Assembly (NCBI RefSeq): GCF_027579695.1
Contig: NC_083570.1
Location: 97,095,463-97,159,462 of the forward strand
DNA length: 64,000 nt
Direction of reading: 5' to 3'
Source: Neoarius graeffei
Lineage: Eukaryota > Chordata > Actinopteri > Siluriformes > Ariidae
Shown: positions 5,560 through 58,289 of the stretch, piece by piece
Layout of the letters: the number at the start of each line of letters is the position of its first letter
Position numbering within the stretch: the stretch's first letter is position 1
Program-made: the position numbers and the translations under genes
Notes under the pieces: generated by a model
The model's input: the letters and a program-made list of their open reading frames with translations, nothing else
Told to the model about the DNA's origin: nothing
The model's database searches: none

Positions 5560-6190
5560 GAAGTTAAAGATAAAACCTGGTATATTGAGCTACTTGCTCT
5601 TCTTTTTGTCTGTACGAAGACCTCATTCTGCACAAAAAAAAGGCATACAAGCCTCATCATGCATTTTAACCACCTTCTAAAAGGCAACACGCTAAGTGAG
5701 CTTCTCCCATTCATACATATCCAAATGATTCTGAATTGCAGTAAAAGGGTGATTTCAGCACAATAAAGGATTTGGAAGTAGCCCATTAGCAGCAGGTAGC
5801 TTTGCACATGATTTTGTCTGCCTCACATTATGCCACATCCTTGTCAAGTGGGAGAATTTGAAAGGATGTACAGTTTAATTAAACTTTTTATTAAGGGAAC
5901 TGGAAATGTACTGACAGTCATATTAATGCCTTCCATTAGCACGTCCTTGTTCTGACATGAGAGCCTTTGTTTCATAAGAACTTCATTTATTCACACGTTT
6001 ATCGCTTCGATACTGAACTCACTTGCTTTTTATTCCCAACCTTTTTAATAGCACTTAAACCACAATTTGTGCCTCATTCTCTACAATTATTAATTAATTA
6101 TGATAATCAAAACTTATACATGTAGATATACTGTACGTGTCGACTGAATTCTACTAGAGCAAGGTCTGGCTTACTTACTGCCTGGGAAAT
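5560..6190. other. no gene seen
   Basis: AT-rich sequence without recognisable genes or repeats shared elsewhere in the window. Confidence 0.5.
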
Positions 6191-6193
6191 AAC

Positions 6194-6324
6194 ATTTAAA
6201 TAATATTAGCTGGTGTTGAGTGGTATATCAGATATATTCCATTTAGCTAGCATGATACTGAATGAGTTGAAGACGAGTAGCTGAATGGAATATATCTGAC
6301 AAACCATGAAATAAAGTCAGCCAA

Positions 6325-6379
<55 letters not shown>

Positions 6380-6752
6380 ATACATTCCTTTCAGGTGTTC
6401 AACACGTCTTTCGCTTTCAAAATTCTCTCAAAACCTTCCGTATTTAACAAAGCAAACCTGGTGGCCATGTTTGTTTACAAATTGACAGTCGCTTGCTAGT
6501 GCAGAAGTTTTACGTCTCCGACGTGTGACGTCATGTTCTCTTGACAACCATGCAATATCATAAACCATATTCAACGCTCATTCCCCATTGGGTAAAGTGA
6601 CGTAATACACGTAAGATAAGTGATATGCTAACAATATTGCATGATACTGTATCAAACCAAATGAATGAAACCCACGAGAAGGGAATAGAACATGCTTTTA
6701 TATGCTTTTATTCCATCGAGAAAGTGTCCTGTATGTATAATAATCACTAATA
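6194..6752 (+). repeat. dispersed repeat F, copy 1, with (TTA)n
   Basis: It runs from taatattagctggtgttg to cctgtatgtataataatcac and shares almost its whole length, including the ttctcaaaaccttc and catgtttgtttacaaattg stretches, with 58368-59272 in the same orientation. A TTA microsatellite (about 6328-6377) lies inside. In the second copy a SINE sits in the same microsatellite. No coding capacity; class unknown. Confidence 0.65.
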
Positions 6753-8015
6753 TTGAATGAACGAGTCCTCTTGATAGAATGTGGGGTGTTAAATATTAAG
6801 TCAACATAATGAATTATTAAGTGAAAATAACATGATATTTGAAATAACAAGCTATTTATTTTAAAAATAGCAAATGACATAGAACTTGTGGTTCCATAAT
6901 ACATGAACTACTTCTATACTGTACATTGGAGTAAATTGGAGCAAATCATAGGCTATACTTGTTGAGTTTACTTTAAAGAGTACTTTAAAGATTGTATTAG
7001 CTTTACTTGAATGTGAACTACATATTAATCTAAATGTGCAAAAAACAAACAAATCTAATATGTTCTCTACTGGTGTTGTTGTACTCAAGACCGGTCTCAA
7101 GACCACTTTTCTTGGTCTTGTCTTGGAATCAACCACATTTTTACTTGGTCTTATCTCGGTCTCAGACATAGAGGACTCTGGATTTTATTTCCAAGACCAG
7201 TCAAGACCATAATTGTGGAGATTTCACTAAATTGCTTGTGCATTGTCTGATTTATTTGTTCACATCAGTGGTTCCCAAACTGGGGGGCGCGGACACTCGG
7301 CGAGTGGGGCGTGTGGTCACACGCAAGGGGCTGGTTTACAGTTCCACCAACAAATAACAAACGTCTTCCTCTTCAGTCCAGCCAATGAAAACAGAGATTT
7401 ATTTGAAATCTCAGCAAGGAACTTTTATAGACACAGCTCAAGTACATAAGAGATCACAGACATCAGAAACACGCCACTGTGCAATCGAGTCTAGCTCGTA
7501 CCACTGCAGCTTTCATATAGCCTACTATTAGCTTTTCAATTACCTTTTTCCAACAACCTTTTTAAAGGCTATATCCTTGCATATATAGCTAGCCTTCCAG
7601 CACTGCTATTGCAGTAATAATTTAAACAGTCTTTTTAAAGACTATTTCAGCCCTCTTTTATCGCTTTAAAACTCCATTTAAATCTGATCTTACCATCTCT
7701 CTTTCCTACTTGTCAACTTACTTTCTCCTTTGTCTCCTTTGCCTATTTGTCAACTTTCTCCTTTCTTTCATCTTTCTCCTACTTTTTTCTCTCTTTCCTC
7801 CACCTTTTTTCTTCAGTGAAAACTTGTAAGGTCCAACACCATCACAGTTAATTATATTTTAACTTAATTACATTAAGCACGGTTTGTAGATTGCTCATTT
7901 TAGCGGAGCCAAGTCTGGTGCTTGGTGGTAAGGTGCTAGCATTCTTAGCTGAGCAAGTCCCTTTGCTACGTTCACACTTACAGCATAACGATCTTTTATT
8001 GGGTTAAAAAACAAT

Positions 8016-20359: not shown

Positions 20360-21270
20360 AGTTGAAGAAAATTAAATCACTTGAAGCTAATGTTTGTTGA
20401 AAGTGAATTTGAAGCCAATATTCTGTAAGGATCTAAAATAGGGCTTTGCTAGACACTGCCAGTGCTGAAACACCGAGAACAAATTGGCAGTCAGAATCAG
20501 TGCACGAATGACGCATGATGAATAAAAAGTGGTTTCCAAAGTTTCTGGAGGAATTTTTCAGGCTTTATATATAATATGCAGCAAATGAATCAAGAGTATT
20601 CCGAGGTACTTATCCTCTGAAGCTAAGCCTTAGAAAACACGTCTTGAAATAGCTTCTTAAAAATCCCATTTCATTTTGCAGTCTGTATTTTATTCAGGGG
20701 AGCTTTTAGAAGCTTTCTATTAACCTTAGGTATGTAAACTCCATTAAAAGAGATGGGGAAATGAAGTTACTGCCTGTAAATAAAATGCCAACATCAACTG
20801 ACTGCAACTTTGGTCATAGAAATCATCAGGACCTCCAGAGGAGACACATCACCATTTGGAAGTTGTTAAAGAAATTTTAACTAAAGTCACTTTTGTCCTC
20901 CTTTGAGTCTGTCTGTGTGGTGAAATATTCTGGATGTGTTATTGGGAAATCATCAATTCACATTCAAGTATGTGACTGAAGCAGTCAAAAGTCAGGGGTC
21001 AATAGCCGGGTTTCCATTAACCTTCTTAATGCACAACTTCAAATTGCAAGCTAGAAAACAGGTAATGGAAATGTGAATTTTGAAAAGAAACTGAAATGTT
21101 GCAAAAAAGTTTATACACCCTCATAAGGTGGTTTTTCAGACAAGCAGTATTTCGCCAAATTGAATTGGAAACACATTTTTCACATTTGATGAGACACTGC
21201 CAGAGCTACAGTAGTGAATGCAAATGAAATTCCATCTCAAATATCAGGTCGTGGAGATCCGAATCGCTAT
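20360..21270. other. no gene seen
   Basis: Unique-looking sequence without splice-bounded frames or repeats shared in this window. Confidence 0.45.
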
Positions 21271-21432
21271 TGCTGGGTTTCAGTCACGTGAATTTTCTTA
21301 GCGGTTTTAACGGAAGTGAAGTAGCTGGTGGTCTAAACAGCTGCCGTAGTACAAACAACTAGTGATAACTTATCAGAGTATGTTCATAATCTAGAAGCCA
21401 CTGCTTGTTTTAGATATATTTAGAAGATTGCT

Positions 21433-21618
21433 ATGTGCAATGGAATTTACCCCTATAGTCTGGGAAAGAAGGATTTGTCATACGATCTCGAAAACTACCC
21501 TTCAGTCGAGTTCCCCGATATCTCAAACTATCTGGTGTTACAGATGTCCTTCTACACCACAAAACAGATGAAAGCGTGGAAGAGTATGGAGGCTTATAAC
21601 TTTTTTGTATGTGGCTGA
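21433..21618 (+). pseudogene. reading-frame remnant resembling fish SWIM/YqaJ-type element proteins
   Basis: Encodes 61 residues including SVEFPDISNYLVLQMSFYTT and the KSMEAYNFFVCG stretch, then a stop where a tryptophan codon would fit (TGA for TGG) before VKDLAIKLLLNES continues. From memory this resembles the N-terminal part of large fish proteins annotated with SWIM and YqaJ exonuclease domains. That identification is tentative. The stop, plus absence of the rest, makes it a fragment. Confidence 0.35.
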
Positions 21619-22059
21619 GTAAAGGACCTTGCTATCAAGTTGCTGCTGAATGAATCCTGTATTGATTTTGCCAGTGTAAGTATGTTTTTTTTAAGCTTTT
21701 CATTTGCATCTTTACGATGAAGCGCTGCAAGTTGAAGTGTAAACAAACAACAATTCACTTGATTCTCACTTGTGTTGGCTCTTATCTCTCAGGTAAATCA
21801 TTCACACAGATCATCAGAAACCCCTTCAAATACCTGGATCTTAGTTAAACAAGACAGAGAAGTGATCACAGCGCATTGTACTGTAACTGTATGGCTGGGT
21901 AAGAATTTTGTCGCGACCTTCATGCATATGGACTTTGTAAGGAGTGAGGCGTAAACAAAGAAACAGCTGGGGACTTTAGCGCTTCGTGATGAAAAAAGTA
22001 CTATAAAATAACGACACATAGCAAAAAAAGTACTCGGAAAACACTAAGGACATAGCTGA

Positions 22060-22284
22060 GAGGGAGATACAAACCTTTCACCAAGTGATCACTGCAAACT
22101 CGAGCATGCTTGCTCCCTTCGATTTCAGCGAGAAGTTCAAAAGCCACCTTTCTCGATGTTTTTTTGGGAAATCCTGTGTCCATTCATTCTTTTTTATTAG
22201 TTTACTGGGAACCCTGAAGAAACTTTTATCAGTTTCACAGTTTGATCGATTCGAACAACCTAAAACAATGCAAGCATAAGGCAT
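22060..22284 (-). pseudogene. THAP zinc-finger exon (transposon-derived), broken
   Basis: Starts MPYACIVLGCSNRSN with the Cys-x4-Cys pair of a THAP domain at residues 5 and 10, then KSFFRVPSKLIKKNEW. After a shift of frame the second half reads ARVCSDHLVKG, the Cys-x2-His pair of the C2CH finger. THAP domains bind element ends in P- and Kolobok-type transposases. No catalytic domain follows, and a frameshift separates the two halves. Confidence 0.7.
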
Positions 22285-22384
22285 TTTTCATGTGAGCTAT
22301 GCACCTTCTCCGTACAAACGCTTTGTCAACTGAGCTTTGAATAACTAATGCAGCCGATGTGACGTCACATGAAACCCAGCAATT

Positions 22385-22915
22385 GTGAGAGGAGAAAAAT
22401 CAGCTTTAATCACATAACCTCACTCGAGAAACACAGACCCTTCACAGCTGTGTTTTGTTGACGACTTTTTAAAAAAATCTCTTCTATTTTGCATAACACT
22501 GCAATGGAAACCAGCCTAATGACTTGAAGGACTTCTTGTTTTAAATATACTGAATACTTTAAATAAACTGCAAGCACATTGTGTTTAACAGATTTATTTT
22601 GAACACTAGACTACAGAAAATCTTTGAAAAGTAACACCACCTCCTCAAACCCACAAATACAATACACTCAACATTTCAACAGTTCAACAACGACATTGGC
22701 CATACCTAAATGTGGGTTTTGATGGCAAAGCATTTAATGTCAGTCAACTCCAGAATTACTGGCACTCTTTATTAAAAGGGGTAAAAATTAATTCATTCAT
22801 TTATTCATCTTCAGTAAGCACTTTATCCTGGTTAGGACTGCAGTAGCTCCAGAGCGTATTAGAGGTAACATTGCACTGTGTAAAAAACCCAACATCCAAA
22901 GATGGTTTTGTCTAG
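22385..22915. other. no gene seen; degenerate repeat at about 22795-22870
   Basis: A stretch near ttcagtaagcactttatcc resembles a teleost repeat with a ttcagtaagcgctttatcc core, here decayed. Nothing else recognised. Confidence 0.4.
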
Positions 22916-23185
22916 ATAATAATAATAATAATGAGAAGAAGAAGAAGAAGAAGAAGAAGAAGAAGAAGAAGAAGATTCTATAGTGCCTTTCAGTATCCCA
23001 AGGTTGCTTTACGGGGGGGCACTAAGCTGTAAGAGAGGGGGCAAAATGTTTATAGAAGAGAAAAATCTTCATTAGAGGCTTTGCACTGTCACGTCACCCC
23101 ATAGCAATGGTACCTAGGGTGCCATGACAGGGGGCATGCTTGTAGTGCTTCATTAAGCTGAGTTAGTTGTTTGTTATTGATCAGT

Positions 23186-23397
23186 ATGGGAAGGTTTTGC
23201 TGCGTTTTTTGATGTGCAAATCATTCTGAACGAAACAAAGACATCAGATTTTTTAATTTGCCAAAAGTAATTCATCATCGGGGGAAAAAATGGAGATTTC
23301 TAAACATAGAAGGGGGAAAAGAAAACATTCAGCGGGACTCGGTGTCGAATGGAGAGGTCAAAAACCCTATGGTATACCCACTTCATTTCCATGAAGG
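23186..23397 (+). pseudogene. THAP zinc-finger exon, left arm
   Basis: Begins MGRFCCVF, then TGA in place of a glycine codon, then CANHSERNKDIRFFNLPKV. The Cys pair falls at residues 5 and 10 as in THAP proteins. The later segment NPMVYPLHFHEGK has Tyr where the finger needs its third Cys, so metal binding would fail. The reading breaks off at a gtaag-like donor. Confidence 0.65.
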
Positions 23398-24013
23398 TAA
23401 GAATTAAAAAAAAATTAATTTCACAACTTCAGCGCGGTGCTCATTCTTATACAGTGAAGTGAACATGAGCAACAACACAGCGGCTCTGCAGAGCTGCTTT
23501 CACTGAGGTGCATTTACATTCGAAGATCCTTCAGAGCACGTTGTGCATGCGCTTGGGACAGTCATTATGGAAAACACCTGATGCTGATTTGAGCACAATC
23601 GGCACACTGTTTTCACAGAGACTTTGCAAGTATTCTGTCAGGTATGTGGTGGTAGACAGGTCTAAATGCAGGAAGAGTGTTTATTAGCAGGCGTGATATT
23701 TACAAAAACAAAACACAAGCAAAACTGAAAGCAGAGTCATAAACATGGCTAGAAACAAGCATGACAGTGATAATGATAATACTTCACAAAGTCTCTGTGT
23801 CCTTATATGTGCATGCTGATTGCACTCAAATCACTATTAGGTGTTTCCCATAATGACTGGGTCCCAAGCGTGTGCACAACGTGCTCTGAAGGATCCCCAA
23901 ATGTACATGCACCTTGGTGAAAGCAACTCTACAGAGCTGCTGTGTTGTTGCTCATGTTCACTTCACTGGATAAGAATGAGCACCTTGCGGTAGTTGTGAT
24001 TTTTTGGGGGGGA

Positions 24014-24239
24014 ATTCTTCCCTTTGTGGAAATGAAGTGAGCATACCATTGGGTTTTTGACCTCTCCGTTCAACACCGAGTCCCACTGAATGTTTTTTCC
24101 CTATTTTTCCCACCTACGTTTAGAAATCTCTCTAATTTTCCCCCCAATGATCAATTACTTTTGGTAAATTAAAAAATCTGATGTCTTTGTTTCATTCAAA
24201 ATGATTTGCACATCCAAAAATGCAGCAAAACCTTCCCAT
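24014..24239 (-). pseudogene. THAP zinc-finger exon, right arm
   Basis: Begins MGRFCCIFGCANHFE, then a stop, then NKDIRFFNLPKV. The second half reads NPMVCSLHFHKGK with the Cys-x2-His pair intact, unlike the left arm. It ends near a gtaag-like donor, consistent with a first exon whose downstream transposase exons are gone. Confidence 0.65.
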
Positions 24240-25193
24240 ACTGATCAATAACAACTAACTCAGCTGAATGGAACACTAAAAGTGTGCCCCCTGTCATGGT
24301 GGCATAGTTACCATTGCTATGGGGTCACGTGATGGTGCAAAGCCTTTACTGAGAATTGAAAGTAGAGAAAGAAGAGCAGTCATGGAGAGATTGAGGAAGA
24401 GAATTCCAGAGTTTGGGGGCAATGGCACTGAAGGACGTGCAACCCATGTTGGACAGTCTGGTGCATGGAACAGTAAGTAGGTTGTTGCTAGAAGACCTTA
24501 GTGACCGAGAAGGGGTGTACAGGGTCAGTAATTCCCTAAGGTAGATCAGAGCAAGATTATGCAGGGCTTTAAAAGTGACAAACAAGATTTTAAATTTGAT
24601 CCTGGACAGAACCATAGCCAGCGTAGCTGAGAGAGGATGGGGGTGATGTGAGCAGAGCTTTTAGTATGAGTTAGAACTCTAGCTGCAGAGTCCTGAATAT
24701 ACTATAGCTTTTGTAAAGACTTTGCAGGAAGGCCTATGAAAAGTGAATTACAGTAATCTAAATTAGACATAATGAATGCATGAACCAGAGTTTCTGCATC
24801 ATTACTAGTCAGAAGCAGACGAAAACGAGCAATGTTACAAAGGTGAAAGAATGCAAGTTTGGTGACTGACTTGATATGAAGATCAAAATTGAGTGATGGA
24901 TCAAATAGTACTCCAAGATTCTTGACAATAGGAGCAGGCTTAACAAGCACACCATCAATACTAATAGAAAAGATTCAGATAGTAGGGATTTGGGGCCAAC
25001 CAGTAGGTCTTCGGTTTTCTCAGTGTTTAACTTAAGAAAGTTTTCTTGCAATGAAAGCTTTAAATCTGAGATACAGTCAGTAGTGTACTGAAAGGGGAGT
25101 CTGAGGGTGAGTCTGTACTGAGATAGAGCTGAATATCATCTGCATAGCAGTGCAATTTAAGTCCATGGCTACAAATAACATAACCAAGGGGTA

Positions 25194-25825
25194 AACCATA
25201 GGTGCTAAAGAAGGCAACTGGACTTGCTTGAAATCCTTGAAGACGTTTCACCTCTCATCTGAAAGCTTCAGTTCTGTCTGACTAGTTGGGAGTTCCAAGT
25301 ATTTATCCTCTAGTGGACCAAAAGCAAACCTAAGGGGAGTTGTTGAGGTCACATGGGTCATTGACACTCTCAGTCATCCTGTAGGTGTTAGGGTCACTGG
25401 AGGCCAGGTGTGAACAGTGTTAGCAGCCTAGAGGGTCATTAGGATGATCTATGGGTCATTGGATCTCTCTGCCATCATGTGAGTCACTGAAGTCAGCTGA
25501 GTCTTGATGTGGATGTATGTTCAGTTTTCTGGGAAGTGTGCCAAGGACTGCATTGTACAGTAGGTGGCTGATAAGTGGTGTCTCAGACTACCTCCTCTGT
25601 TCAGTGATGGTCGTTCCAGGATTGACAGATGGCTTATTTTACTCCTCTTTCAAACCACTAGTCTTCATACCTGGAATACCTGGAACTCCCCACTAGTCAG
25701 ACAGAACTGAAGAAGCCTTTCGGATGAGAGGTGAAATGCCTTCAAGAATTTCAAGCAAGTCCAGTTGCCTTCTTTAGCACCTACAATTTACAATGACCTG
25801 GATGACTGAGAACCTTCACAGATAT
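25194..25825. mobile_element. 632-bp insertion with inverted ~110-bp arms, in the L2 frame
   Basis: Perfect 14-bp direct repeats ataaccaaggggta flank it (25180-25193 and 25826-25839), and the LINE reading frame continues across them. Arms near 25199-25310 and 25665-25790 are inverted copies (left gtgctaaagaaggcaactgg). The long target duplication favours a retroelement, possibly a Penelope-like element with inverted pseudo-LTRs. No coding sequence remains to test this. Confidence 0.7.
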
Positions 25826-26229
25826 ATAACCAAGGGGTAGGATGTAATTTAAAAAGAGAAAAAGAGAAGAGGCCCAAGAACTGATCCCTGATGGACCCCA
25901 CACTTAACAGGAGAGGTGGCGGACTTGTGTGAACTTTGTCTGATAAACTGTTGTCTGTTTGAAAAAACTGTTATGATCTGTATATTATGAATCCATGTTG
26001 GTTACTGTCCAATCATTGCATTGTCAAAAAAAAAAATCTCCAGGTATGCTTCAGATATGAAAAACTTGTCTTTGACCCTTTCCTTTTTCCATGTTGTACA
26101 CATTTGCCCTTGTACTGTACCGATTTATTATAATTCCATAGAAAGATTGGTTGCTGAGTTGCACAAGATGGGTAATGGATATAGAAAATACACAAACAGT
26201 TAAATGCACTATTAAGCACAATCAGGGAC

Positions 26230-26235
26230 ATTTAT
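26230..26235 (-). promoter_or_regulatory. possible polyadenylation signal
   Basis: An AATAAA hexamer on the minus strand (tttatt on the plus strand), about 290 bases past the stop codon at 26521. Placed by spacing only. Confidence 0.3.
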
Positions 26236-26450
26236 TTATAATGAAAAATGTTGCAAATTTCTGAAGCATGTTAGATGTGCGAGTATACTGGGTTCAAGGT
26301 CATGAAGGGCACCAATAATTTTGGAGTTGATTATATATGAGCACCAAATGATGACATGGACATTACTGAAACACATTCATTTGATATGTGACGCAGTCAT
26401 AGTTTGCGTTAACACAGACATGGAGAAGTGTGTCTGAGATATATATGTGT

Positions 26451-26454
<4 letters not shown>

Positions 26455-26500
<46 letters not shown>
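26455..26500 (+). repeat. (GT)n microsatellite
   Basis: About 20 GT units, in the presumed 3' UTR of the candidate terminal exon at 26521. Confidence 0.9.
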
Positions 26501-26502
<2 letters not shown>

Positions 26503-26520
26503 GGGCCAGGCTCTTGTATA

Positions 26521-26574
26521 TTACTTCAACTCTTCTGAGGCTGATGTAGGGGTTTCAGATTCTTCCTGACTCTC
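26521..26574 (-). CDS. candidate terminal coding exon of an unrecognised host gene
   Basis: An acceptor with a clean pyrimidine tract (cctctcattttag) is followed by ESQEESETPTSASEELK and a TAA stop. The peptide is Ser/Glu-rich and looks like a disordered tail. It is phase 0, matching the candidate exons at 31885-31941 and 39823-39891. A possible poly(A) signal lies about 290 bases on. I do not recognise the protein. It sits outside recognised repeats, just below the Kolobok-like element. Confidence 0.45.
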   Translation of the reverse strand, partial: ESQEESETPTSASEELK

Positions 26575-27043
26575 CTAAAATGAGAGGAACACACAAGGTT
26601 TCACAATACCATATATTTACCATACATGACCTCCATATAGGATTCACAAAGGCTTAAATCATCTTAATTTTATTCTCATGTTACACTACCCTGATGACAA
26701 ACGCACTATTCATTTACTAATAATGATGATGTGGTACATTATGGTAAATATACTACAGTATGATTATTAAAGGGATCCTCCAGCGGATTTATTCTCAAAC
26801 TTATTTTAAGTAAAAGTAATCGCAGGTTTCAAAAATCAAACTTTCATTTTTGGAGACCAAATAGTGTTTGAGAAAAATGAATTTTCTTTAAAATGTCAGA
26901 TCAGCTTCCTGCGGTGGTGACATATGCGATGACATCAGGTAGTGGTCACTTGAGGCAACTTAGCTGTTTATATTCTCCGTTTACATCATAGTTATGCTAG
27001 TTTTACAAGTATTTTAACCAAATTTATCAGTTTTTAAATAAGT

Positions 27044-27090
27044 ATGCCTCATTGTGTAGCATATAAATGCCACAATTATGCTAAAAAGAA
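27044..27090 (+). pseudogene. THAP-like exon start, left arm (repeated at 27620)
   Basis: Encodes MPHCVAYKCHNYAKKK with Cys-x4-Cys spacing like a THAP domain. It is then interrupted by the SINE; beyond the SINE at 28047 the exon continues with reading equivalent to AQAGTRLHF of the right arm. The 576-bp duplication repeats this start at 27620-27666. Confidence 0.55.
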
Positions 27091-27452
27091 GGGCGGCACG
27101 GTGGTGTAGTGGTTAGCGCTGTCGCCTCACAGCAAGAAGGTCCTGGGTTCGAGCCCCGGGGCCGGCGAGGGCCCTTCTGTGTGGAGTTTGCATGTTCTCC
27201 CCGTGTCCGCGTGGGTTTCCTCCGGGTGCTCCAGTTTCCCCCACAGTCCAAAGACATGCAGGTTAGGTTAACTGGTGACTCTAAATTGACCGTAGGTGTG
27301 AATATGAGTATGAATGGTTGTCTGTGTCTATGTGTCAGCCCTGTGATGACCTGGTGACTTGTCCAGGGTGTACCCCGCCTTTCGCCCGTAGTCAGCTGGG
27401 ATAGGCTCCAGCTTGCCTGCGACCCTGTAGAAGGATAAAGCGGCTAGAGATA
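27091..27452 (+). mobile_element. Mermaid-like SINE, duplicated copy 1
   Basis: Full-length, near consensus, with the gatggatgg tail abutting the second duplication unit. It is a duplicate of the next copy and not an independent insertion. Confidence 0.9.
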
Positions 27453-27666
27453 ATGGATGGATGGATGGATGTCAGATCAGCTTCCTGCGGTGGTGACATA
27501 TGCGATGACATCAGGTAGTGGTCACTTGAGGCAACTTAGCTGTTTATATTCTCTGTTTACATCATAGTTATGCTAGTTTTACAAGTATTTTAACCAAATT
27601 TATCAGTTTTTAAATAAGTATGCCTCATTGTGTAGCATATAAATGCCACAATTATGCTAAAAAGAA

Positions 27667-28033
27667 GGGCGGCACAGTGGTGTAGTGGTTAGCGCTGTCG
27701 CCTCACAGCAAGAAGGTCCTGGGTTCGAGCCCCGGGGCCGGCGAGGGCCCTTCTGTGTGGAGTTTGCATGTTCTCCCCGTGTCCGCGTGGGTTTCCTCCG
27801 GGTGCTCCAGTTTCCCCCACAGTCCAAAGACATGCAGGTTAGGTTAACTGGTGACTCTAAATTGACCATAGGTGTGAATATGAGTATGAATGGTTGTCTG
27901 TGTCTATGTGTCAGCCCTGTGATGACCTGGTGACTTGTCCAGGGTGTACCCCGCCTTTCGCCCGTAGTCAGCTGGGATAGGCTCCAGCTTGCCTGCGACC
28001 CTGTAGAAGGATAAAGCGGCTAGAGATAATGAG
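27667..28033 (+). mobile_element. Mermaid-like SINE, duplicated copy 2
   Basis: Full-length; 13-bp direct repeats atgctaaaaagaa lie on each side (27654-27666 and 28034-28046), showing the original insertion into the THAP-like exon. Confidence 0.93.
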
Positions 28034-28112
28034 ATGCTAAAAAGAAAGCACAAGCTGGAACTAGACTGCATTTCTGCAGAGAAAATGCAACGTGTGCTTG
28101 ATCAGCTGTAGC

Positions 28113-28189
28113 AGAGGGTCACTGACAGAAACTGGATCAGACATGAGACCTCACACTGCAAAATCATTTTTTCACATGATCTACAGAAA

Positions 28190-28222
<33 letters not shown>

Positions 28223-28531
28223 GTTGCGTGCTCTAAAATCTGGGTTTAAAATGGCTCAACTCGCAGTGTGACATGACACTTTGCGGTCTAAAATCTTTTT
28301 TTTTTTACATGATCTACAGAGGGTGCTGGTAGATTAACAGAAAGAGTGTGTGGCATTGTTTAAAACAGAGATTTTAGAGCGTGAAGTGTTATGTGCTGTG
28401 AGTTGAACCATTTTAAACCGAGATTTTAGACCATGCAGCCACACACACTACACACACTTTCTGTAGGTTGTGTAAAAACAGATTGTGCAGTGCGAGGTCT
28501 CATGTTTGAGCTAGTTTCTGTCGGTGACACT
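28113..28531. repeat. centre of the foldback palindrome, with (GT)n
   Basis: The left part (28113-28300) and right part (28360-28531) are inverted copies: gagacctcacactgcaaaat against the later agtgcgaggtctcatg, and tctaaaat stretches between. A GT run (28192-28222) faces a short CA-rich run in the other arm. This would form a long hairpin. Confidence 0.75.
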
Positions 28532-29244
28532 CAGTGTTATAATCAAGTCACTAAACCTCAAGTGAGAGTCCAGTCTCCACTGTTCAAGTCTGAGTCAAGT
28601 CCAAGTCATTAAAGAAAATTTTGAGTCAAGTCCGAGTCATGTCCACTATTAATCCTAGTTGAGTCCGACACAAGCCCCCCTCAACAGGGCAAATAACATG
28701 AGAAAGGGTTAACACTAGCTAGTTCATAGGTTAGCAAGCCCCGCTATCAAAAGAGCAATGAACTTTGCGTGTCACTTACTTCTCTGGGTGGAGTTTTGTC
28801 AAATGACGAAGTTCGAGGTTGTCCCCATCGTCTCCTCGATAGTTCTTCTACAGATGGAACACATAGCAGTGCATTTTTTCCCACTGTACGAGAAGTTTGT
28901 AGACGCAAAGGAGACAATCCTAGGGGCTTCTCTCCAGGTATTTTAGTGCCATTAATGTTAGTTTGTTCCTGAACACGACGTATGAACAGGTGAATGTACA
29001 TTCTCTCGCATAAAATTAGTATAAAAATTAATGTAGATATAAATATCTTATGCCAAATTATTATGGCATGCTACAAAAAATAAAGAAAAAATCCAAGTCC
29101 TCGTCTCCAATTTACGAGTCTGAATGCAGTTAATGCACGAGTCCAAGTCCAAGTCATCAGTGTTCAAGTCCAAGTCAAGTTACAAGTCCTTAAAATTAGG
29201 GCACGAGTCTGACTCAAGTCCAAGTCCTGAGTACTACAAGCCTG
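28532..29244. mobile_element. hAT nonautonomous element H, copy 1
   Basis: Starts cagtgttataatcaagtcac, ends gagtactacaagcctg, with flanks gtgacact and gtgacatt (8-bp duplication, one mismatch). Subterminal parts are dense in aagtccaagtc. It inserted into the right arm of the foldback near its centre. Copy 2 is at 57430-58289. A short open frame with HLFIRRVQEQTNINGT is shared by both copies; its function is unknown. Confidence 0.82.
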
Positions 29245-29367
29245 GTGACATTTTCCCACAGCTGAGCAAGCACACTTTGCGTTTTCTCTATGGAAATGCA
29301 GTCTAGTTCCAGCTTGTGCTTTCTTTTTAGCATCATTGTGGCATTTATATGCTACACAACGAGGCAT
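29164..29367 (-). pseudogene. THAP-like exon, right arm of the foldback
   Basis: The part from 29367 down to about 29253 belongs to the foldback; the rest reads into the nested hAT. It starts MPRCVAYKCHNDAKKKAQ, then GTRLHFHRENAKC. The Cys pair has THAP spacing. The Cys-x2-His half is not seen, so the assignment is weaker than for the other two THAP elements. Confidence 0.5.
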
Positions 29368-29568
29368 ACTTATTTAAAAACTCATAAATTCAGTAAAAAA
29401 AAAACACTTGTAAAACTAGCAAAACTATGATGTAAACAGAGAATATAAATAGCTGAGTTGCTCTAAGTGACCCCTATCTGACGTCATTGCATATGTCACC
29501 ATCACAGGAACCCCATCTGACATTTTAAAGAAAATTCATTTTTCTCAAACACTATTTTCCCTGTGTCT

Positions 29569-30846
29569 GAAATCACTCACTACTCACTATATAATGGACT
29601 ATATAGTGAGTTCGCCATTTTGTAGTGCTGTCCGAATGTATAGTAAGAATTATTACATCCTATATAGTGCACTCATAGTATCCCACAATACACCGTGAAA
29701 AGTAAAGATGATCACTAACCAAGCAATATATACACCTTTATTTACCATCATGCATCGTGGTGGCACATTTTCACAGAGCTGTAAAAGCTGTTTCATAAGG
29801 ACTGTTAAGTATTTTAGATGTATACTGTTAAGTATTTTAGATGTATACTGTTAAGTATTTTAGATGAGTATAAGTAGTTTGTTTTTCCTCATGACAACAG
29901 GCACGAGACAAATTTATAAGTTGTGGCAGGAAAATGGATGGAGGAAGAAACACATTATAAAAGGACATTCAAGTACAATTAAAAATAGTAAGAAAATAGA
30001 AACTAAGTTAAAATAGAATAAGACATACAATACAAGAATAAAAGTTACAGTACAGAGTGAGGAATTAATCAAAAGTCTCAAATTTGATTTAATAAAAGGC
30101 AGCAGCAAAGAAGAAGGTATTCAGCCTTGATTTAAAAGAACTGAAAGATGCAGCAGACACAAAGTACTTTTTATTTATTAATTTGGGAAATATCCATCCA
30201 TCCATTATCTACAGCCGCTTATCCTGTTCTACAGGGTTGCAGGCAAGCTGGAGCCTATCCCAGCTGACTATGGGTGAGAGGCGGGGTACACCCTGGACAA
30301 GTCACCAGATCATCACAGGGCTGACACATAGAGACAAACAACCATTCACACTCACATTCACACCTATGGTCAATTTACAGCCACCAATTATCCTAACCTG
30401 CATGTCTTTGGACTGTGGGGGAAACCGGCGCACCCGGAGGAAACCCACACAGACACGGGGAGAACATGCAAACTCCACACAGAAAAGCCCCCATCAGCCA
30501 CTGGGCTTGAACCCAGAACTTTCTTGCTGTGAGGCGACAGTGCTAACCACTACACCACCATGCCGCAATGTGGGAAATGCGCTCAGTATAATATGGATAT
30601 ATCACAAAAATACATGCATGTATTTATTATTATGAAAACACACCAGCCAACTGATCTGGCACGTTTTAATTGTGCGACAGTAATGATGTAAATAACAGTG
30701 CGGCGGACTAGTGTCCAAAAGTGTTTGGGGTTTTTTGTTTGTTTGTTTTTTCATTTTACCAATGAGCTCACTATACAGTCCTCTATATAGAATTCCCGAG
30801 ATAGTCAGTAGGGAGTAGTGAATGAGTGAGTGATTTCGGACACAGC
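29569..30846. mobile_element. MITE with ccctgtgtctgaaat ends, copy 1
   Basis: The ends ccctgtgtctgaaatcac and gtgatttcggacacag are inverted, with TTT on both sides where the opposite foldback arm shows the uninterrupted site. Subterminal ctatatagtg motifs repeat in both orientations. It contains a SINE at 30192-30566. A second copy is at 53315-53905. The 3-bp duplications would suit a PIF/Harbinger-like origin, which is inference. Confidence 0.75.
30192..30566 (-). mobile_element. full-length Mermaid-like SINE inside the MITE
   Basis: 12-bp flanking repeats aatttgggaaat and aatgtgggaaat (one mismatch). The sister MITE at 53.6 kb lacks this SINE and shows the empty site aatgtgggaaat. Confidence 0.92.
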
Positions 30847-30921
30847 TTTGGTCTCCAAAAATGAAAGTTTGAGCTTTGAAATCTGTGACTACTTTTACTT
30901 AAAATAAGTTTGAGAATAAAT

Positions 30922-31286
30922 CTCATCTCATTATCTCTAGCCGCTTTATCCTGTTCTACAGGGTCGCAGGCAAGCTGGAGCCTATCCCAGCTGACTACGG
31001 GCGAAAGGCGGGGTACACCCTGGACAAGTCGCCAGGTCATCACAGGGCTGACACATAGACACAGACAACCATTCACACTCACATTCACACCTACGCTCAA
31101 TTTAGAGTCACCAGTTAACCTAACCTGCATGTCTTTGGACTGTGGGGGAAACCGGAGCACCCAGAGGAAACCCACGCGGACAACATGCAAACTCCGCACA
31201 GAAAGGCCCTCGCCAGCCACGGGGCTCGAACCCGGACCTTCTTGCTGTGAGGCGACAGCGCTAACCACTACACCACCGTGCCACCC
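30922..31286 (-). mobile_element. full-length Mermaid-like SINE in the foldback right arm
   Basis: Perfect 15-bp repeats agtttgagaataaat on both sides (30907-30921 and 31287-31301), matching the uninterrupted left arm. A small internal deletion removes the acgggg region after cacgcggac. Confidence 0.93.
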
Positions 31287-31321
31287 AGTTTGAGAATAAA
31301 TCCGCTGGAGAATCCCTTTAA

Positions 31322-53204: not shown

Positions 53205-54400
53205 TAACGAGACCGTCAGTGATGGTGTAGCTCACTCTGGCCCCGTCTAGTCCAGAAGAAATGATCTAAAGTGGGCCACCTTGTGCAATAAATGTTCCAA
53301 GCTATATACATTATCCCTGTATCCGAAATTGCCCCCTACTCACTATGTAGGGCGCTATATAGTGAGGTCGCCATTTTGTAGTGCTGTCCGAAATGATAGT
53401 GAGGATTATTACACCCTATATAGTGCACTCAAAGTATCCCACAATGCATCACGAAAAGTAGTGTACAACCGATGGTTATTAACCAAGCAATATATCCCAT
53501 CATGCATTGCGGTCGCGCTGAAAGAAATCAAATCAAAAGCCTCAAATTTGATTTAATAAAATGCAGCAGCAAAAAAGAATGTATTCAGCCTTGATTTAAA
53601 AGAACTGAAAGATGCAGCAGACACAAAGTATTTTGTATTTATTAATGTGGGAAATATGCTCAGTCTCATATGTATTTATCACAAAAATACATGCATGTAT
53701 TTATTATTTTGAAAACCCACCAGCTGACTGATCTGGCACGTTTAATTGTGTGACAGTAATGATGTAAATAACAGCGTGACTGATTAGTGTTTGAAAGCAA
53801 TTTTTTTTCATTTTATCAATGAGCTCACTATGTAGTCCTCTATATAGTAATTCCCTAGATAGTGAGTAGGGAGCAGTGAACGAGTGAGCGATTTCAGACA
53901 CAGGGTATATACAAGCTATATATAGAAACTATATCCATCCTAGGAATGCCGACCTATTTGCCAGAAAGAATCCAAAACGGTGAGGAATTGACCGAGAAGA
54001 AGCGATTTTGGTTGAGCTGCTCATAAAGGCTTAATTAGTCCATAACTTCATTAATAATTTTAAATAAGCAAATCTGAGTAGAAGTTATATGCACCCTAGG
54101 TAGCCCTACCTTCATGCCAGAAAGAATCAAAATCGGTGAAGATTTGAGAGAGAAGAAGCAGTTTGTGTGGAAACTGCTCATTAGGGCTTAATTACTCCAT
54201 ATCTGTATTATTAAGTGCAATTATGCAAATTTGGGTAGAAGTTATATACACCCCAGGCAGACCTACCTCTCTGCCAAAAAGAACAAAAATCGGTGAAGAA
54301 ATAAGAGAGAAGAAGTGATGTTCGTGAAATGTGGACGGCACTGGACGGACGACGTGATGGCATAAACTCATCGCCTGTCAGCCAGATGAGCGAACAATCC
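53205..54400 (-). repeat. dispersed repeat G, copy 2, with a MITE inside
   Basis: Inverted relative to 3975-4560. From gagaccgtcagtgatggtg to ggcataaactcatcgcc it follows the first copy, including the three ~110-bp subunits. The interruption at 53315-53905 is absent in copy 1. Confidence 0.7.
53315..53905. mobile_element. MITE with ccctgt ends, copy 2
   Basis: Ends ccctgtatccgaaattgc and gcgatttcagacacaggg. TAT flanks both sides (53312-53314, 53906-53908), and repeat G copy 1 shows the uninterrupted site. Internal text matches copy 1 (29569-30846) minus that copy's SINE. Confidence 0.8.
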
Positions 54401-57429: not shown

Positions 57430-58289
57430 CAATCTTGTAGTACTCGAGTCTGACTCGTGCCCTAATTTTAAGGACTCGTTTCTCGACTCGGACTCGGACT
57501 CGTGCATTAACTGCACAAGTTCGGACTCATAAATTGGAGACGAGGACTTGGATTTTTTCTTTATTTTTTGTAACGTCATAATAATTAGGCATAAGATATT
57601 TATATCTACATTAATTCTGTAATAATTTCGTGCAAGGGTGTCATACCTGCGCACCTTGGCACGGGCATCAGATAGACTCTTGGACGCGCTCTGGACAGCG
57701 TGCATGCCAAGCAGACTCTCACACGCGTGCTGTAAACTCACACCTGCACAGGATTAAGGTGCAATCAGCGCGCCTATATAAAAACTGTGAAAACACACTT
57801 ACTTTGCGAAGTATTGAGTTGCATTGCTGACACATTACCGAGCCTTATTTCCTTGTTTGGCTTCCTGATCCCTGATTTCCTGTTTCTCATCTTTGATCCT
57901 GCTGAGTCTATGATAGCCTGTTTGTGCCTCGCTCGACCTATTACCTGTTTCAATTTTACGATTTTGCCTGCTGTTCTGGATTGTTTACCGTCTTCACTTG
58001 TATTAATAAACACACCTTCTGCACTTACATCCATTTCCCAACCTTCTCTGACAGAATACTTCACACTCCCTGACAAAGAGAAGCGCATTCACCTGTTCAT
58101 ACGTCATGTTCAAGAACAAACTAATGTTAATGGCACTGAAACAGCCACCATCAAATGGGGTGGTTGGAGTGTTGGACTAGGACTCAGACTCCAATTAGAC
58201 TTGACTCAAATTTTTTTTTTAATGACTTGGACTTGAACACTGGGGACTCGAGACTGGACTCAAGGTTTAGTGACTCGACTACAGCGCTG
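57430..58289. mobile_element. hAT nonautonomous element H, copy 2
   Basis: Left caatcttgtagtactcgag and right gtgactcgactacagcgctg are inverted. Flanks cccgtatc and cccgtgtc form an 8-bp duplication with one mismatch. It is inverted relative to copy 1 at 28532-29244 and longer by about 150 bp. It shares the HLFIRHVQEQTNVNGTE frame and carries the aataaacacaccttctgcac module. Confidence 0.82.

Follow-up and report, generated by a model that had tools for sequence, protein, structure and literature searches.

Three THAP-bearing transposon remnants in Neoarius graeffei, probably derived from convergent two-gene ISL2EU-type and Kolobok parents

The stretch analysed, C2:97095463-97159462 of the 2.34 Gb Neoarius graeffei genome (38 contigs), is referred to as the window and comprises 64,000 nucleotides in full. 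It contained three separate elements, E1 (21271-22381), E2 (23074-24347) and E3 (26771-31317), which agreed with the three elements that a first-pass annotation of the window had placed at 21.3, 23.1 and 26.8 kb. The locus very probably consists of three old nonautonomous DNA transposons that inserted separately and are not all of one kind; in this joint reading, held with the same high confidence, E1 and E2 would derive from ISL2EU and E3 from Kolobok, the foldbacks would be made of THAP ends, and the E3 family would have had a single origin followed by exchange between arms. The anatomy of the elements, their family copies, their AT or TTAA flanks, related two-gene loci elsewhere in the genome and the relationships among arms were all observed directly. 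No intact protein-coding frame was seen in E1, E2 or E3.

Anatomy of E1, E2 and E3

The features of E1 were (window coordinates; basis in parentheses):
21271..22381, no strand: E1, best read as a nonautonomous ISL2EU-type element, ends TGCTGGGTTTCA / TGAAACCCAGCA (genome copies and termini in 10 copies)
21269..21270, no strand: left target duplication, AT (copy comparison)
22382..22383, no strand: right target duplication, AT (copy comparison)
21433..21678, plus: SWIM/YqaJ gene exon 1, with one in-frame stop here (no Pfam match)
21793..21898, plus: SWIM/YqaJ gene exon 2, start of the SWIM zinc finger (family majority against L071)
22073..22284, minus: THAP exon of the transposase gene at the right end, inward-facing (Pfam THAP)

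The genome search with E1 gave 5368 first-look candidates, and all 40 places scored, window copy included, spanned at least 997 of the 1117 query bases (86-100% identity). AT stood outside both ends in nine of 10 copies, the window copy among them, and the tenth had AC on the left. In the family majority, drawn from the nine other copies, two plus-strand exons were read inward from the left end, the first MCNGIDPYSLGKK...FARV and the second closing at a splice donor, and a minus-strand THAP exon terminating CSDHLVKG was read inward from the right end. This minus-strand THAP exon scored 23.6 bits in the window copy, just below the Pfam cut-off (23.9 bits), and 38.2 bits in the family majority. 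No Pfam match was obtained with the first SWIM/YqaJ exon; the second aligned with the start of the open SWIM+YqaJ frame of locus L071 (41% identity, E 7e-10), where a helix-turn-helix (HTH_Tnp_4) transposase frame converges with the adjoining SWIM+YqaJ frame. At the DNA level E1 and L071 shared a 17-base match only.

E1 thus contained the first exons of both genes of an ISL2EU pair in convergent orientation, with the catalytic parts absent. ISL2EU is known in teleosts, and its published plan combines an AT duplication with two proteins, one a DDE/HTH/THAP transposase and the other of YqaJ type (PMC4482050, PMC9179366). Because its AT duplication and its THAP and SWIM/YqaJ first exons fit that plan, E1 is best read as an internal-deletion derivative of a two-gene ISL2EU-type transposon in which the starts of both genes were kept. 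It is not a THAP-only element, which the first-pass annotation had taken all three to be, since it also holds two exons of a second gene (SWIM/YqaJ) on the opposite strand; nor is it a foldback, its two ends being different (THAP on the right, SWIM/YqaJ on the left).

The features of E2 were:
23074..24347, no strand: E2 foldback, ends AGAGGCTTTGCAC / AAAGGCTTTGCAC (right, reversed), target duplication decayed to TT / AC
23074..23634, plus: left arm, THAP end (against the reversed right arm)
23186..23398, plus: left-arm THAP exon, followed by splice donor GTAAG (Pfam THAP 27.0 bits, one stop as X)
23635..23777, no strand: loop of 143 bases (arm alignment)
23778..24347, minus: right arm, THAP end, inverted (arm alignment)
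24020..24239, minus: right-arm THAP exon, decayed (Pfam THAP 15.8 bits, under the cut-off)

E2 is a foldback, most of which is formed by long inverted arms, each with a THAP first exon and a splice donor. The arms were 88% identical over 554 columns when aligned directly, and 85% identical over 555 sites when both were aligned to the family majority (query-anchored). The genome search gave 1627 candidates, with 40 places scored and 42 matches, which besides the window copy were 79-87% identical. Ten copies were read, nine over 1.4 kb and one over 0.9 kb. Their majority went from MGRFCCVFGCAN... through a disturbed middle to CSLHFHEG and the splice donor GTAAG, and the second half of the THAP exon read through in copy L062. 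Four of the 10 (L060, L064, L066, L068) had another inverted arm, 150 bp or longer, and L063 had a 28 bp inverted match; five had none.

AT preceded AGAGGCTTTGCAC at eight of 10 E2-family left ends, and both copies in which the two ends were available had AT on both sides. Judged by its sequence, E2 is ISL2EU-type rather than TTAA/Kolobok, because its family has AT beside the ends and its THAP exon is E1-like, aligning with that of E1. Its assignment to Kolobok was rejected, as a TTAA target duplication was not found and AT occurred at other copies; the window flanks, TT / AC, are open to misreading as TTAA-like, and of the TTAA-type flanks described earlier those of E3 alone stood. In copy L061, pieces of the SWIM exon faced inward from beyond the THAP end (three linked, two of them overlapping, weak), the arrangement expected as the leftover of a two-gene parent; the other nine copies read gave no convincing match to a SWIM partner. 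No relatives of the E2 flanks, as an empty site, were found among the loci examined.

The features of E3 were:
26771..31317, no strand: E3, probable Kolobok-type foldback swollen by later insertions, ends AGGGATYCTCCAGCGG
26767..26770, no strand: left TTAA (terminal arms)
31318..31321, no strand: right TTAA (terminal arms)
26771..27090, plus: left arm, outer part, terminus to THAP codon 16
27044..27091, plus: first 16 THAP codons of the left arm, with a second copy at 27620-27667 in the tandem duplication
27091..28033, plus: insertion in the left arm, a repeat tandemly duplicated with part of the arm (99.5% over 567 columns)
28034..28303, plus: left arm, inner part
28304..28361, no strand: loop of 58 bases, with related sequence in 7/12 family copies examined
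28362..28532, minus: right arm, inner part
28533..29244, no strand: insertion in the right arm, a repeat found in other loci too
29245..29557, minus: right arm, middle part
29320..29367, minus: first 16 THAP codons of the right arm
29558..30846, no strand: nested element in the right arm, with a SINE-like (short interspersed element-like) repeat inside; partial relative at 53314-53903
30847..30922, minus: right arm, outer part
30923..31286, minus: SINE-like repeat inserted in the right arm
31287..31317, minus: right terminus

With the tandemly duplicated repeat insertion on the left and the three right-arm insertions set aside, E3 is also a foldback composed mostly of long inverted arms (90% identity over 568 columns and a 58-base loop by direct alignment; 88% over 543 sites in the query-anchored comparison). 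Its outermost arms (26767-26801 / 31287-31321) were 97% identical, and at the ends TTAA was followed by AGGGAT. Each arm proceeded from the terminus through the 5' region and THAP to codon 16, and then switched to non-THAP sequence. The 16 codons present (MPHCVAYKCHNYAKKK) had no Pfam match and scored 15.1 bits with a local profile; they were recognised through a complete relative, L005/L020 (66.7 bits). The THAP content of E3 is a stub, because both arms leave THAP after codon 16. Long inward-facing inverted arms in two elements had been described correctly, being present in E2 and E3, but a THAP exon in both arms was confirmed for E2 and reduced to those 16 codons in E3. Matches to KolX in the window were at chance level only.

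The insertions within E3 had features of their own. At 27091-28033, a SINE-like repeat and a piece of the E3 arm formed a 576-base tandem duplication whose copies (99.5%) were far more alike than the surrounding arms. The 0.7 kb insertion at 28533-29244 was rich in AAGTCCAAGTC-like steps and recurred in part at about 57442-58281 and at L008, L025 and L055, and the nested element at 29558-30846, with its partial relative elsewhere in the window, had CTGTGTCYGAAATCACTCACT ends.

The E3 family and two-gene parents

The genome search with E3 gave 1984 candidates, with 40 places scored and 46 matches (84-100% identity, window copy included). Of the 14 other places read (of 39), nine had another inverted arm spanning 150 aligned bases or more, shorter inverted matches were present in L042 (53 bp), L049 (83 bp) and L053 (68 bp), and L050 and L054 had none. 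The two-armed build was therefore not private to the window, several other copies of both the E2 and E3 families having it; a lack of such copies, which would have refuted the first-pass account, was thus not observed. TTAA was found at 12 of 15 left and four of six right E3-family ends inspected, and a terminal AGG (5'-RR termini) at nearly all. The reading switched to AQAGTR or AEAGTR after THAP codon 16 in six of nine other loci.

Relatives of E3 with more of a parent were found in several places. L020 was 74% identical to the E3 arm and was bounded by TTAA on both sides. One of its ends had a complete THAP exon (66.7 bits with the second exon joined), and the partner first exon at its other end resembles, by eye, the exon of L036. 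In L036, THAP at one end was paired with a P2RX7_C-like (KolX) exon at the other, which scored 17.1 bits against a cut-off of 23.5. L070 was more complete: its TTAA was followed directly by AGGGATACAG, both a THAP exon and a catalytic exon (PF20700, E 1e-5) were present, and P2RX7_C matched the other strand at 5740-5964. A Cys-rich frame at 6279-6782 had no P2RX7_C match, and the right end of L070 was looked for and not found. The catalytic exon of L070 contained the motif GDGRCDSPEHSAKYG, which we take to be that of Kolobok.

E3-type THAP exons were scored at 150 of 9528 candidates from the genome search. When 50 E3-type THAP places were compared with 71 catalytic places, three lay within 12 kb, all with THAP upstream on the same strand. 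The closest of the three pairs was on C28, where L072 had the whole of an E3-type arm from TTAAAGGGATCCTCCAG onward (76% identity across the full 324-base query). An E3-type THAP match followed this end at a distance of about 300 bp, and a catalytic match (E 2e-8) started on the same strand 657 bp past the THAP start, the THAP and catalytic matches both being placed by coordinates. Because a 76% relative of the E3 end here precedes THAP and a Kolobok-like catalytic match, E3 is probably a Kolobok-derived nonautonomous element and not an autonomous Kolobok. No closer or intact partner for the E3 ends was found.

Convergent gene pairs were also counted across the genome. A HTH_Tnp_4 match lay within 10 kb of 51 of 71 YqaJ matches, convergently in all 51 (87 of 95 HTH rows entered the count, and two of the 51 represent fragments of a single place). 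Catalytic matches numbered 89 genome-wide; when 84 such places were compared with 124 P2RX7_C (KolX) matches, 30 had a KolX match within 15 kb, convergent in all 30.

Both parent types would thus carry two convergent genes, each starting near one terminus: a THAP transposase and a SWIM/YqaJ nuclease in the ISL2EU parent, and a THAP transposase and KolX in the Kol0 Kolobok parent. Internal deletion would leave first exons beside the ends, as in E1, and first exons would be retained because the two genes converge and their starts lie near the termini. In E2 (ISL2EU) and E3 (Kolobok), an inverted copy of the THAP end would have replaced the non-THAP end, creating a palindrome with THAP-gene ends at both termini that the matching transposase could mobilise in trans. 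Such passive mobilisation through retained ends would be the defensible mechanism. The E3 family would have arisen once and then spread, the arms of many copies being later re-equalised by exchange within the same copy. The idea that foldbacks came from a duplicated Kolobok-like end therefore held for E2 and E3 as regards the THAP-encoding end, and for E3 alone as regards Kolobok, E1 and E2 being ISL2EU-type; that the end-binding domain was kept while the catalytic part was lost agreed with the missing catalytic part of E2 and E3, but E3 retained a THAP stub only.

Three other places were noted. Near one contig end, at G000:C17:2.2-4.6 Mb, six similar ISL2EU-like gene pairs were found within about 2.4 Mb, with YqaJ frames of 405-549 aa and spacings near 1.4 or 1.8 kb; this group may reflect recent activity or segmental duplication. 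Clustered P2RX7_C matches and Kolobok-like catalytic matches at G000:C1:85-96 Mb are possibly an amplified or domesticated array. In L003, a SWIM-gene exon (396-569) and a THAP exon of another family (1501-1755) were divergent, not convergent, and perhaps belong to two neighbouring elements.

Arm-to-arm similarity and rival explanations

Query-anchored arm rows were compared in 10 two-armed E3-family copies, window included. Mean identity of the arms within a copy was 0.910, against 0.883 (standard deviation 0.0055) in permuted pairings, and was reached in one of 20000 permutations. The two arms were sisters in six of the 10 copies (L046, L051, L052, L056, L058, L059; FastTree support 0.88-0.995), where shuffling led to an expectation of 0.36 copies and reached six in none of 5000 shuffles. 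Some changes private to a copy were common to both of its arms, for example 12 of 25 in L056. Since the two arms were nearest relatives in six of 10 copies, their sequences suggest arm-to-arm homogenisation in the E3 family, with gene conversion as the putative process; the window copy was not among the sister-arm copies. Loop-like sequence (at least 37 aligned bases) was shared by seven of the 12 copies examined (L046, L053, L054, L056 inverted, L057, L058, L059), and the E3 family therefore probably arose once.

Two other accounts of the arms were considered. Their likeness may come from subfamily founders with already identical arms, with no exchange since insertion, which we regard as rather unlikely: the recurrence of sites 387 and 389 in L046, L056 and L059 agrees with it, but a founder of this kind predicts equal similarity within and between copies, and the L056 arms, 96.2% alike and at most 91.8% alike to any other arm, count against it in what is a small sample with undetected subfamilies possible. 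Less probable still, at about one chance in several, is that foldbacks re-form locus by locus through recurrent inverted duplication of a one-armed THAP end, instead of forming once and being homogenised. The sister arms, the changes shared by both arms of L056 and the five copies with no loop match, sister-armed L051 and L052 among them, would all agree with it; the loop shared by the other seven copies and the same AQAGTR or AEAGTR reading past codon 16 in six of nine loci count against it, as does the lack of a second end of THAP or KolX type in L050 and L054, which have no second arm.

The other alternatives concern the parents and the persistence of the palindromes. That all three elements are Kolobok derivatives, the earlier account being right throughout, is highly improbable. 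E3 fits it, and the E2 flanks in the window can be read as decayed TTAA (TTAG / GTAA), but other E2 copies and the E1 copies had AT and not TTAA, the second gene of E1 is SWIM/YqaJ, and the E2 THAP aligns with that of E1. An origin from a P element was also rejected, as AT or TTAA was found in place of its 8-bp target duplication (PMC1562414). We give little credence, though slightly more than to Kolobok throughout, to the palindromes being kept because their transcripts would form long hairpins and so contribute to small-RNA silencing directed at the parents. The L056 RNA is predicted to fold to -788 kcal/mol, against -234 (standard deviation 7) in 20 shuffles, but any palindrome folds in this way and the fold says nothing on transcription, and the window copies are decayed, E3 being interrupted as well.

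Several results weigh against the joint reading of ISL2EU and Kolobok parents, THAP-end foldbacks, single E3 origin and arm exchange. No autonomous copy was found whose ends matched those of E1, E2 or E3 exactly, no search having been aimed at those of E1. An E1-type THAP query had no match in L071, whose plus strand contained a further SWIM-gene-like exon (30%, E 3e-8), and L071 therefore supports the second gene of E1 and not its THAP exon. The AT beside the E1 and E2 ends could be, in part, conserved element sequence. In the stretch read, six of 10 E2-family and five of 14 E3-family copies had no second arm of at least 150 bp, and the tie between E2 and a SWIM partner consists of a single weak match (L061, E 0.006). 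In L070 the catalytic exon scored 25.2 bits against a cut-off of 26.5 and was called Kolobok from TTAA, THAP and the KolX neighbour together, plus the motif; the catalytic match of the C28 relative contains stops, the sequence read there being a 481-base stretch at the end of that relative. As to the arms, they were not sisters in the window copy, L044, L055 or L057, the loop match was missing in L044, L050, L051, L052 and L055 (five of 12), and excess arm similarity was found in just one of five two-armed E2-family copies.

Clustering, known systems and meaning

The first-pass annotation had regarded the clustering of THAP exons as the least ordinary feature of the window, which was not borne out. 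At L020, L027, L030 and L055, two or three THAP exons likewise lay only a few kb apart; these loci were picked around THAP matches or E3 copies and therefore show no more than that clusters are not rare. The 38,411 unscored first-look THAP candidates amount to about 0.16 per 10 kb, from which some 150 ten-kb stretches with three candidates are expected by chance (simple Poisson, rough, candidates unverified), and the cluster was rejected as a special feature. The adjacency of the three elements looks coincidental, since E3 is from another superfamily than E1 and E2, themselves of two separate families, and has a different target site. The locus is mostly ordinary, because each remnant belongs to a family repeated genome-wide. 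The window was rich in the SINE-like repeat and contained frames that look Tc1-like.

The elements resembled known systems in part. ISL2EU (PHIS / Harbinger-like; PMC4482050, PMC9179366) shares the AT duplication and two open reading frames, a THAP/HTH DDE transposase and a YqaJ exonuclease; unlike it, E1 retains first exons only, and E2 has the THAP end only, twice and inverted. Kol0 Kolobok with KolX, and the KolX-derived P2X7 ballast, have been published (PMC9587614), as have the TTAA and AGGRR termini of Kolobok (PMC6004289). E3 is similar in its TTAA, terminal RR (AGG) and THAP transposase, and its relatives L036 and L070, and by eye L020, in a KolX-like exon opposite the THAP gene; unlike Kol0 Kolobok, E3 is without the KolX end, both arms being THAP ends that leave THAP after codon 16. 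Xenopus T2-MITEs, presumed nonautonomous Kolobok, also have TTAA and AGGRR termini, but are described as terminal inverted repeat miniature elements (TIR MITEs) and not as THAP-end palindromes (PMC6004289). A precedent in kind is Galileo, a foldback-like transposon with a THAP transposase and THAP sites within long inverted arms (PMC3688188), which lengthen through recruited internal sequence (PMC3573991); Galileo belongs to the P superfamily, in Drosophila, whereas E2 and E3 are ISL2EU and Kolobok, with coding exon sequence itself in the arms. No description of THAP-end foldbacks in Kolobok or ISL2EU was found among the literature titles and abstract openings listed.

A further reading, which we offer tentatively and consider somewhat less probable than its contrary, is that two superfamilies in one genome independently became THAP-end palindromes and that the Kolobok-derived arms evolve in concert through exchange inside each copy, the palindrome being actively maintained and not just inherited. 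If the homogenisation is true, such families would provide a countable record of gene conversion in inverted repeats, with many copies per genome. The convergent two-gene plan, by starting genes near the ends of a transposon, would offer a simple reason for the first exons, especially of THAP, that litter such genomes, its deletion derivatives so carrying DNA-binding domains or stubs thereof.

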